A stretch of DNA of 64,000 bases. Origin: Bacteroidia bacterium (lineage in GTDB: Bacteria > Bacteroidota > Bacteroidia > J057). Location of the stretch: assembly GCA_033391075.1 (NCBI GenBank), contig JAWPMV010000001.1:7626001-7690000 (forward strand), written 5' to 3'. The first letter of the stretch is position 1; every line of letters starts with the position of its first letter. Below, piece after piece: positions 7,195 through 10,736 of the stretch. Under the pieces are notes generated by a model, which searched no databases, was not told where the DNA came from, and saw only the letters and a list, made by a program, of their open reading frames with translations. Both the position numbers and the translations under genes were made by a program.

Positions 7195-9768
7195 TTATCT
7201 TCTTATCTGAGAGGTGATGGTCGAATCTTTGATTTTATCATCTTCTGCCAGGAGGAAAGCCTTGGACAAAATGATCGATAATCCCTGATCTCCTTCGAAA
7301 GGAATGAATACTTTTTCTGAGACAGATTTTTTCTGACTTCGATCCGGCACGATGCAGAGATATTGATCATTGGGCTCCATGAGGATATTGGTGCTACCCA
7401 TGTGGATTTTGTAGGTTCTGATTTTGCCTTTTACGGTCAGGAATTTTTCCCCTACTTCTGCTACCTCTTTGATTTTGAGACGCGGGACGAGATTCTTGAG
7501 TATCGACTTACGGTTCTTGGCTATCTCCGATAAGTCCCCAAAGGAATAGCTTTGCCAATAGGTCTGCATCTGTGGTCGCCCTCCATTGTCATGCCAGGTC
7601 GGATCATTTCCTACACTGGCTACTCCTACAAATAAATCTACATCTCGCAGAACTTCCGAAAACAATACCCGTGGCACATCTACCAACTCCACAACATCTC
7701 CTGTATCGATTTTGATAAAGCGAATCTGATCCGTACTCATGTATTTCCAGATCCCCGAATCATTAAATTCGTCATGTCCATCGACGGCCTGCACCCAGAA
7801 TTGTGCTCGTAGGTTGTGTTCAGGTATGGGCAATTCACAATAGTCATCATAGCCCCCGTCCCAGGCTCCCTGTAAAGCCGCTTTCCACATGCGTCCTTTG
7901 GCCAGATTTACATATTGATGTTGTTTTAGAATGTGGGTAGCCATGCGATTGCTATAGGTTCGGGTATTGATCTCAGCATCTGTGAGGAGGTAAACTTCTC
8001 GAAAGGCTTGCTTCATAGGCTGCTGAATTTCTTTTTCGATCAGGAAATTTCGCCAGGCCTCTATCCCATCTACCGAATCCAAAGCCGGATGCCACAATGA
8101 AACCTCTGCTTTTTCAGTAATCTTGACTTCTCCTTTTTCCGGATGTATCCATTTCCCTTCCAAATAAATGGCAGGAGTCATCTTTCCTTCATGCTCGAAA
8201 TTCCATATCAGCTTTTTAGCGATACTGGACATCAACCCATGATCCAGAAAATGCTTGCGGAAAGTCTCCATGTCCCACTTTCTATCGACTTTGAACATGC
8301 GATCTATACGCTCCTTTTGAGCAGAAGTACTCTGCTCAATCTGCTTTTTGCTTTGCTTGAGTTTTTTCAGCTTGTCTGGATATTTCTCCTTGACCAAAGC
8401 AGGGACAGATTTTTGTCGCTTCCCATCTTCTTTTAACCAGTAAAAATCAGTTCTGCCGGGCTTGGTGATCTCAATTACTGCTGTAAAAGGATCGAAGTTT
8501 ACTTCCTTTCGCCCATCTACCAATCCAAAATTATCTACTGCCAGGTCTTCAATCTCATGGACGGAAATGCCTTTCTCTTTGGCAGCTTGATTCAGGTATT
8601 TATTGATGATTTTATTGGCAGAAGGCTGTTTGATCTTCATTTTAAGGCGAGAAAGCCTGCCGATTCCATCCAACCCTCTCGATTTGAATAGACTATAAAA
8701 ACAAGCATTGCCCAAAGCGGGCGCAATGGGACCAACTCCAGGGACTTTCTTATAACATCTTTCCCCTAATGCACTGAGGTTGCTGAGTGTTCGAGCATCG
8801 GAGAAATGAGAACTCATCCAGATTAAGCCTTTCAGGTTTACGGCATTAGGAGGACTCAGGAAGCCGTAGAAGTGATTGGGCCTATATGAATATCCAGTAA
8901 GCTGTACCTGGTCCCTCAAGCTTTCCTTGAGGCCCAGAACGAATTCCATCCATTCATTGATCGTATTTCGGAAGCTATCCTTTCCCAATTGCTCGATGAG
9001 GGCTTTGCTGTCTTTGAGGTAGCGGGCACTAGGTTTCGAAGAGCTGGCAGATTGGGTTTTTCTAAGCAGGAGGAACCATACGGACTGTTCGAGATCATTC
9101 GGCCAGTTTTCTATAGACAAATTGACCTTGTCTTTGAGCGGGTCATTTCCCTTGAGGTAATATGGAACAATGGTGGGTTTTCCATCCGACTTATTCCCAA
9201 GTACCTGATCTATACGATCCAGGACTTTCACTCTTTCCTTCTCATATTGGTACTCCTGATAAGCGTCTATCTTTTTTCGAAAATGTATCAGATATTCTCC
9301 TAGCTCTTTCGAAATGCTCGTTTTTTTATACTGTTTGAGGAGTTGATTCAAAAAGGAAAGGATGGGCCAGCTAAAGAGATTTCCCCAATTTCGATATTGC
9401 CTGCTCATGAAGATGCTGAGTAAACGTTTTACTTCCTCATCTTCCCAGCTGATTTTAATTCTGAAGAGTTGTTTGAAATAAGCTTCAAGAATGTAAATCC
9501 TTCTATAAGGATTATCATTATAGTTTCTCTTTTTGAGTTTATAGTAAGCATAAATCTCATCACATAAATAGAATAGAAAAGCTACTTTTTCCTTATCTGA
9601 TAAAGGCTTTATAATTTCTTCCCAGGCTGTTAATTCTGTTGCCTTTAAGGAAAAGAGGTATTGACGATCTTCTACTTCTTTGAAACTTTGTTTTATGATA
9701 ACTGCGTAGGGGCTTTCCTGGCTTTCTTCCAGACCGAAGAAATTCAAAACATTTTTTAGTATTTCCAT
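7195..9768 (-). CDS. DUF4132 domain protein (MolR/YehI-like)
   Basis: An 857-residue cytoplasmic protein with no signal or TM helix. The central region (about residues 340-560, with LDGIGRLSRLKMKIK, QKSVPALVKEKYPDKLKKLK and the WDMETFRKHFLDHGLM stretch) and the C-terminal 200 residues (DVDLFVGVASVGNDPTW, HMGSTNILMEPNDQYLCIVP) match the DUF4132 family, which includes E. coli MolR/YehI; the WGR domain found in some members is not visible here. Biochemical function is not established. It is preceded by 11 bp by the gene for a 129-residue protein ending in Gly-Gly, and the two appear to form an operon. Confidence 0.85.
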   Translation of the reverse strand: MEILKNVLNFFGLEESQESPYAVIIKQSFKEVEDRQYLFSLKATELTAWEEIIKPLSDKEKVAFLFYLCDEIYAYYKLKKRNYNDNPYRRIYILEAYFKQLFRIKISWEDEEVKRLLSIFMSRQYRNWGNLFSWPILSFLNQLLKQYKKTSISKELGEYLIHFRKKIDAYQEYQYEKERVKVLDRIDQVLGNKSDGKPTIVPYYLKGNDPLKDKVNLSIENWPNDLEQSVWFLLLRKTQSASSSKPSARYLKDSKALIEQLGKDSFRNTINEWMEFVLGLKESLRDQVQLTGYSYRPNHFYGFLSPPNAVNLKGLIWMSSHFSDARTLSNLSALGERCYKKVPGVGPIAPALGNACFYSLFKSRGLDGIGRLSRLKMKIKQPSANKIINKYLNQAAKEKGISVHEIEDLAVDNFGLVDGRKEVNFDPFTAVIEITKPGRTDFYWLKEDGKRQKSVPALVKEKYPDKLKKLKQSKKQIEQSTSAQKERIDRMFKVDRKWDMETFRKHFLDHGLMSSIAKKLIWNFEHEGKMTPAIYLEGKWIHPEKGEVKITEKAEVSLWHPALDSVDGIEAWRNFLIEKEIQQPMKQAFREVYLLTDAEINTRTYSNRMATHILKQHQYVNLAKGRMWKAALQGAWDGGYDDYCELPIPEHNLRAQFWVQAVDGHDEFNDSGIWKYMSTDQIRFIKIDTGDVVELVDVPRVLFSEVLRDVDLFVGVASVGNDPTWHDNGGRPQMQTYWQSYSFGDLSEIAKNRKSILKNLVPRLKIKEVAEVGEKFLTVKGKIRTYKIHMGSTNILMEPNDQYLCIVPDRSQKKSVSEKVFIPFEGDQGLSIILSKAFLLAEDDKIKDSTITSQIRR

Positions 9769-9779
9769 GATTGTGTTGA

Positions 9780-10169
9780 TTATCCTCCGACCAGAGGGGT
9801 AAGTTTGATGAAGCTGATTTCTGTGTTTTCGTTAAGCATAACCGCCTGATCCAGGCTTTCAGATTGTATGGTATCAACCAGGACAAAGAAGCCGTTTTTC
9901 TGAAAGGCATCCAGGGCGATATATACCTGCTTTTCTGCATCTATGGGCTTGGGGCGTTTGAGCTTGTAGCCATTGATGCTTTGCTCGGCTTCACTGGGTT
10001 TAACCAGGCCTTTGAAATACTCCGGCAATCTTTCATTATAAAGTCTAACCTCTTCCCGTACGCGCGCACTAATGATTTCTCTTACGGTGCTCTTTTCGCT
10101 TTGCATGTCCAGGCTCAGTTCGTGAATGACTTGACCCGTAAAGCTTTCGTCTTTGATGGTAATGATCAT
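9780..10169 (-). CDS. Small protein with C-terminal Gly-Gly, partner of DUF4132 protein
   Basis: A 129-residue protein from the ATG at 10169 (MIITIKDESFTGQ). A longer frame exists upstream but has no plausible start context. The N-terminus looks like a beta hairpin followed by a helix (STVREIISARVREEV), then INGYKLKRPKPIDAEKQVYIALDAF, and the chain ends in SFIKLTPLVGG. A short beta-rich protein with an exposed diglycine terminus recalls ubiquitin-like modifiers or carrier proteins, but no E1, E2 or JAB gene lies nearby, so this is only a suggestion. It probably shares a transcript with the DUF4132 gene. Confidence 0.75.
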   Translation of the reverse strand: MIITIKDESFTGQVIHELSLDMQSEKSTVREIISARVREEVRLYNERLPEYFKGLVKPSEAEQSINGYKLKRPKPIDAEKQVYIALDAFQKNGFFVLVDTIQSESLDQAVMLNENTEISFIKLTPLVGG

Positions 10170-10736
10170 ATCTGTGTTGATTATGCTTGTTACTTGATTG
10201 AATTCAGTTTCATATTTATTTGGATAAATCAATTCGTCTTGCCCAAGCTTGATGCCAGATTTAGACATGCCAAATCCAGGCTCAATCCTGAGTTGCCGAT
10301 AAGTATGATACATTTGAATGGCTCTACCCTTAGCCTCCTATCCAGAAATGGGATAGAATTGTTTCATGCGTTGGGTTAAAGAAAATGAGATGGGAATATT
10401 GTGTTCTCCTCTGTACTTTTCTTGTGTTAAAGATCGGGAAAATCCGAGAGATTTCAAAAGGATTTTTGAGTCTTGATGGACCCTTCGCCTCAGGCCTACA
10501 CTCCCTAGGCCTGCGGAACAATGGAGTGCGCGCAGGCCATTAAAAACAAATCTTGTCATTCCGAGGCTAGGTTAGGAAAGGCTCCTGCGTGCCGAGGAAT
10601 CTTATCTTCTGATCGTCTCAAATAATACATGATCTCTCAGCCCGCATGCCCTTTCACAATCAAACTTCGAGATGACCTGCGGCCTGGATTGAGGCTTGTT
10701 TCTCTCCCGAGAGAAACGGGGCCTGCAGCGGAAGAG
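10170..10736. other. Intergenic region with dispersed-repeat sequence
   Basis: A 567-bp gap. Bases 10315-10470 are AT-rich and probably contain the promoter of the Gly-Gly protein gene, although no clean box pair was found. From about 10480 the sequence is GC-richer, with AGGCCT twice (10493 and 10507 region) and the TGTCATTCCGAG element described separately. No protein-coding sequence is supported. Confidence 0.5.
10554..10677. repeat. TGTCATTCCGAG-type dispersed element
   Basis: The element begins TGTCATTCCGAGG and ends CTTCGAGATGAC, whose inverse GTCATCTCGAAG matches the start at 9 of 12 positions. Inside is GCCGAGGAATCTT. The start and the CGAGGAA(T/C)CT core recur at 53578. Dispersed elements of this outline are widespread in Bacteroidota genomes (general knowledge); mobility is not shown. 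Confidence 0.6.

Follow-up and report, generated by a model that had tools for sequence, protein, structure and literature searches.

Is a small bacterial protein with a free Gly-Gly (GG) end, encoded directly before a gene for a DUF4132 protein, a ubiquitin-like protein, and what is the DUF4132 protein to it? The question is raised by two genes on the reverse strand of a stretch of 64,000 nucleotides from a Bacteroidia bacterium (assembly GCA_033391075.1, contig JAWPMV010000001.1, positions 7,626,001 to 7,690,000), here called the window, in whose numbering positions are given. The first gene (9780..10169) encodes a protein of 129 residues with the C-terminus ...SFIKLTPLVGG, the codons of Gly128 and Gly129 (9783..9788) being directly followed by a TAA stop, and the second (7195..9768) encodes a partner of 857 residues. 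Comparison of the pair with its relatives points to an undescribed ubiquitin-like system, predicted to consist of the small protein, the DUF4132 partner and sometimes a dedicated E1-type activating enzyme, and induced by DNA damage in Deinococcus. An earlier note on this locus had suggested a modifier with a DUF4132 protein as its activator or target, and is supported in part: the GG end, the pairing, the beta-grasp fold and a functional coupling of the two genes stand, while the DUF4132 protein as a necessary activator or target does not.

Conservation of the Gly-Gly end and of the gene pair

In a first comparison, 6 of 100 relatives carried a homologue of the small protein. Scanning one genome per species over 84,980 species gave 99 relatives, of which 80 were kept. 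The exact GG terminus is present in 78 of these, in most of them as LTPLVGG, which confirms the free terminal GG and rules out that it arose by chance; the other two are L078, where the gene is truncated, and L086, whose protein ends in GV. The ORF (open reading frame) coordinates place the small gene first, with a gap of 11 bp to the DUF4132 gene, as the earlier note had it. The conservation of this pairing, which had been named as a check, was likewise found: a DUF4132 gene is adjacent in 74 of the 80 loci, downstream in 73 and upstream in one (swapped order, Actinoallomurus). Five of the six genomes with no adjacent DUF4132 gene encode a DUF7737 protein elsewhere, and one relative (G001) has neither a GG end nor any DUF7737 match. 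Pairs occur outside Bacteroidota in Deinococcus, Actinomycetota, Alphaproteobacteria and cyanobacterial metagenome-assembled genomes. Among 395 Bacteroidota genomes, 12 have a match to the small protein, 12 to DUF7737 and 11 to both (Fisher p about 1e-19, a value that ignores shared ancestry); the lone small-protein match is an unrelated protein, and the lone DUF7737 match is a fragment.

The partner scores 149.7 bits against DUF4132 (PF13569, residues 449-628, 7885..8424) and 131.9 bits against DUF7737 (PF24879, residues 750-855, 7204..7521), above the curated cut-offs of 27. Its assignment to DUF4132 thus holds, with DUF7737 as a further domain, and the YehI likeness attributed to it before is distant only (about 21% to E. 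coli YehI). The invariant residues of the DUF4132 core are H560, Q583, K586, Q587, R590, E591, Y593, T596, E599, S606, R608, H612, R626 and W628, and they are common to partners of small proteins with and without a GG end. The structure model of the partner has a mean confidence (predicted local distance difference test, pLDDT) of 85.5.

The 12-mer ATAATCAACACA has only two copies in the window, one right before the ATG of the small gene (10173..10184) and one right before that of the DUF4132 gene (9772..9783), both on the reverse strand. A longer start of the small gene at an in-frame ATG at 10313 (177 residues) is unsupported, as homologues begin at the ATG of the 129-residue form.

Some loci depart from the common arrangement. 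Hymenobacter sp. H14-R3 has three tandem DUF4132-DUF7737 genes after a single small gene (L059:8463-16377) and is also the source of the GV-ended protein; this genome has five DUF7737 matches. One GG-ended small gene (L061) lies on a contig binned as Leptospirales, in a genome with no DUF7737 match which may be mis-binned or incomplete. Weak homologues in Actinomycetota (L257-L264, L276-L278) have tails such as LERPVVA with no GG, and no DUF4132 match lies nearby in the three loci examined; they are possibly a separate family. The annotated gene upstream of DUF4132 in Acetobacter does not resemble a homologue of the small protein and was rejected.

Fold of the small protein

The small protein matches no model in Pfam or NCBIfam, and a sequence search of solved structures returned chance-level matches only, both for it and for the DUF4132 protein. 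A search of its own genome with PF02597 (MoaD/ThiS family) finds MoaD and ThiS and not the small gene; of the families shown for 50 homologues none is ThiS, and Urm1 falls short of significance in them (E 0.06, reached by two of the 50). The AlphaFold2 model (pLDDT 86.7, predicted template modelling score 0.82) has the order beta-beta-alpha-(insert)-alpha-beta-beta-beta, in which an N-terminal beta-hairpin leads into a long helix; an insert that contains another helix comes next, and after it three strands and a disordered tail (residues 126-129, pLDDT below 50). What had been described as a short beta-helix at the N-terminus is, in the model, the beta-hairpin of a beta-grasp fold. The top fold matches are MoaD/MOCS2A, ubiquitin, ISG15 and SAMP1 (VIA Z 8.0 for human MoaD, 5mpo; 8.1 for a ubiquitin-like spliceosomal protein; near 7 for many ubiquitins), with Urm1 (1wgk, 7q5n) and SAMP1 (3po0) as further matches. 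These Z values are not decisive alone, but since one fold dominates the match list, and since an independent model of the Deinococcus homologue also resembles MoaD, SAMP1 and Urm1 (PMC9650054), the protein is predicted to be a beta-grasp protein nearest to MoaD, Urm1 and ubiquitin, in line with the fold proposed as a check.

E1-like enzymes

The gene next after DUF4132 encodes an E1-like protein of about 235 residues, and starts at or before the DUF4132 stop, in 13 of the 80 loci, which come from Flavobacterium, Pedobacter, Chitinophaga and two further Flavobacteriales. Six more such loci found later bring the total to about 19. The linked E1s match structures of MoeB (1e-54) and ThiF (1e-52), keep the adenylation motifs GAGGLG, NLHRQ and CDCTDN as well as an invariant Cys aligned with Cys184 of ThiF, and have neither CxxC zinc pairs nor a rhodanese domain. 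In a tree with 31 other genomic MoeB/ThiF proteins, the first 13 form a separate clade (100/100). When neighbouring ORFs were clustered over the 80 loci, the E1 was the only further gene recurring at a fixed place; E2 and JAB-type genes did not appear in this clustering, which included no scan of the neighbours with E2 or JAB models. PADLOC recognises neither the small protein nor DUF4132, and assigns the E1 to generic E1-E2 models.

The statement that no E1 lies nearby is true beside the window's copy, but relatives encode one in the same cluster. From the lack of an E1 it had been concluded that the DUF4132 protein must be activator or target, and this does not follow: with an E1-like enzyme directly downstream in about 19 relatives, DUF4132 is no longer needed as activator, and the home genome has an E1 of its own. 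This single E1 is a MoeB-rhodanese protein of 390 residues, encoded away from this locus, with a CKSGARS loop in its C-terminal rhodanese-like part; an E1 is present in 35 of the 36 genomes examined. The home genome also encodes MoaD with MoaE, and ThiS, separately, so that the small protein would be a third carrier.

Two kinds of pair and Cys805

The aligned C-terminal 560 residues of partners of GG-ended proteins contain a single invariant cysteine, Cys805 (codon at 7354..7356), which is kept with free-GG small proteins and lost with those that have no GG. Losses are seen in a second kind of pair, with a longer partner of about 1,650-1,720 residues. Where this long partner occurs in Flavobacteriaceae and other Bacteroidota, the C-terminus of the small protein is YW (AGSYW, TGTYW, SGAYW), RLW or GGW in place of a free GG, and none of these loci was found to have a linked E1. 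The earlier note had held that homologues lacking GG would speak against it; they exist, as a side clade with longer DUF4132 partners. The long partner also occurs with a free-GG small protein, in Deinococcus and two Actinomycetota, and Novosphingobium, Nonomuraea and other Actinomycetota have short and mid-size partners with GG-ended small proteins.

Over all adjacent pairs, GG goes with Cys805 in 84 (18 with an E1), and an intact non-GG end goes with Ser, Asn, His or Ala in 19, none of them with an E1; further cases of GG with Cys occur among Actinomycetota pairs, beyond the 84. Four pairs combine a non-GG end with Cys, three through an interrupted small gene and one through a GV end. The linked E1 is found only at loci of the Cys805 type. 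Partners of GGW-ended proteins have Asn or His at this position, which indicates that it is the free GG that goes with the cysteine. That Cys805 merely marks the short architecture was rejected in part, since the long-type partners of GG proteins in Deinococcus and Actinomycetota keep it. When 55 partners were placed in a tree, those of the non-GG group came out as a single clade (100/99) within the long partners that retain GG and Cys, so GG and Cys805 were lost together, but once only.

Single genes of the pair are decayed at a few loci. In L078, L227 and L242 a premature stop or a frameshift breaks the small gene next to a Cys805-bearing DUF4132 gene, and in L182 (5492-6493) it is the long DUF4132 gene that has shrunk to a 147-residue remnant, the YW-ended small gene next to it being intact. 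In one genus of Flavobacteriaceae, loci of the long type (L178, L183, L184) adjoin nucleotidyltransferase-like genes.

The Deinococcus pair and DNA damage

DRA0165-DRA0166 of D. radiodurans, with a GG end, a gap of 2 bp and a DUF4132 partner that has Cys805, belongs to this family. According to PMC8533742, a DdrO site is predicted for the operon, whose expression is up on DdrO depletion, and mitomycin C increases DRA0166 protein, though not in the absence of IrrE. Deletion of DRA0165 leads to higher catalase and total antioxidant activity, according to PMC9650054, in which the protein is called Deinococcus-specific; the homologues in other phyla correct this status. On the DRA0165 promoter (L188, upstream of 1634) the two papers conflict, a DdrO motif at -83 (PMC8533742) standing against no radiation/desiccation response motif (RDRM) found (PMC9650054).

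Proposed mechanism and alternatives

What comparison of sequences establishes is a predicted beta-grasp protein with a flexible GG tail, a conserved pair, an E1 at some of the loci and the joint states of GG and Cys805. These joint states lead us to propose that the activated C-terminus meets Cys805. On balance we think it probable that an E1-activated ubiquitin-like protein of the MoaD/Urm1 class delivers its C-terminus, as a thioester or as thiocarboxylate sulfur, to the DUF4132-DUF7737 partner at this residue. The terminal glycine would be adenylated by the dedicated E1, or here by the MoeB-rhodanese enzyme of the genome; the tail would then dock in the partner as MoaD does in MoaE, the acyl group or the sulfur would be passed to Cys805, and the loaded cysteine may charge or switch an activity of the conserved DUF4132 core. 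The pair would form part of the DNA-damage response in Deinococcus.

Several points weigh against this proposal. The association of GG with Cys805 rests on a single coincident loss, about 28 other positions likewise separate the first two sets of partners compared, Cys805 adjoins a low-confidence loop of the DUF4132 model, and L086 combines Cys805 with a GV tail. The linked E1 is missing at most loci, the window's own included, and the fold matches are middling (Foldseek E 0.02 to 0.1, best 0.023; VIA Z about 8). The pull-down-validated partner of DRA0165 so far is thioredoxin Trx1 and not DRA0166 (PMC9650054). Finally, one clade keeps the pair with no free GG, which means that the pairing itself is independent of GG chemistry; such chemistry belongs to most family members but not to all, and a non-covalent role in addition is likely from this clade.

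The proposed delivery to Cys805 may take two forms, each of which we hold only tentatively. As a pure sulfur carrier the small protein would give thiocarboxylate sulfur to a reaction catalysed by DUF4132, as in MoaD-MoaE and ThiS-ThiG. The order of carrier, partner enzyme and E1 resembles ThiS-ThiG-ThiF and MoaD-MoaE-MoeB (PMC1779556), MoaD is the best fold match and the sole E1 of the home genome has the rhodanese-like part with its CKSGARS loop, but the linked E1s have no rhodanese domain, no metabolic or cofactor gene recurs in the clustering of the 80 loci, and the partner is retained where the small protein has no free GG. It is also conceivable that the small protein is a modifier conjugated to DUF4132 or other proteins, Cys805 acting as a thioester site of the E2/E3 kind; the free GG, a dedicated E1 with a cysteine of the ThiF C184 type, the tie between Cys805 and free GG and the DNA-damage induction in Deinococcus would suit this, whereas against it stand the clustering of the loci, in which no recurring E2 or JAB-type gene appeared (no model-based scan of the neighbours was made), and the lack of reported adducts of DRA0165. 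A bolder form, that DUF4132-DUF7737 proteins make up a novel class of ubiquitin-like transferases or target enzymes, onto whose Cys805 the E1 loads the small protein, in a compact E2-less pathway for the DNA-damage response in several phyla, seems to us rather doubtful.

That the small protein merely stabilises or regulates the DUF4132 protein as a non-covalent subunit, GG being kept for a structural reason, is in our view unlikely for the family as a whole. The retention of the pair with YW, RLW or GGW ends and no linked E1 agrees with it, as do the shared core residues of both types, but exact GG ends over several phyla, dedicated E1s and Cys805 would then be unexpected. A stand-in for MoaD or ThiS in cofactor synthesis, suggested by the MoaD-like fold and tail and by the name molR once given to DUF4132 relatives in E. 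coli, is largely refuted and very improbable, given canonical MoaD, MoaE and ThiS in the same genome and, in D. radiodurans, the lack of a joint response of moeA and moeB with the operon (PMC8533742).

Comparison with known systems

With the preferred reading of an activated C-terminus delivered to Cys805, the uncharacterised DUF4132 family gains a partner and a testable chemistry, and a DNA-damage-induced operon of Deinococcus is tied to ubiquitin-like activation. Free GG with Cys805, set against YW, RLW or GGW ends with no Cys, offers a natural contrast for how ubiquitin-like proteins shift between covalent and non-covalent use. A literature search, outside of which subscription papers and preprints lay, found no link between DUF4132 and a bacterial ubiquitin-like protein, and the available parts of PMC9650054 and PMC8533742 on DR_A0165 (SEP068184) and DRA0166 do not note the GG end, homologues elsewhere, an E1 or the link to the partner. 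The YehI/MolR proteins of E. coli share the DUF4132 domain with the partner but have no DUF7737 match, and YehI adjoins MoxR, VWA and SWIM genes, with no comparable small protein annotated beside it.

The pair is like MoaD/ThiS with MoeB/ThiF (PMC1779556) in its beta-grasp fold, free C-terminal GG, E1-type partner and neighbouring partner enzyme. It differs in that the small protein has no PF02597 match and, at 129 residues, carries an insert between alpha1 and beta3, and in that its partner is a DUF4132-DUF7737 protein in a genome with its own MoaD and ThiS. With the dual carriers and modifiers Urm1, SAMP1 and TtuB it shares the fold, as matched to Urm1 and SAMP1, and a MoeB-type E1, but the small protein is strictly coupled to one partner family and its Urm1 family score is not significant. 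No E2 or JAB gene as in the Bil and Bub operons was seen at the present loci, where neighbouring ORFs were clustered but no E2 or JAB models were run; what is shared with these operons is a ubiquitin-like protein together with an E1, and Bub operons are likewise under the control of DNA damage (PMC13373217 and references there).
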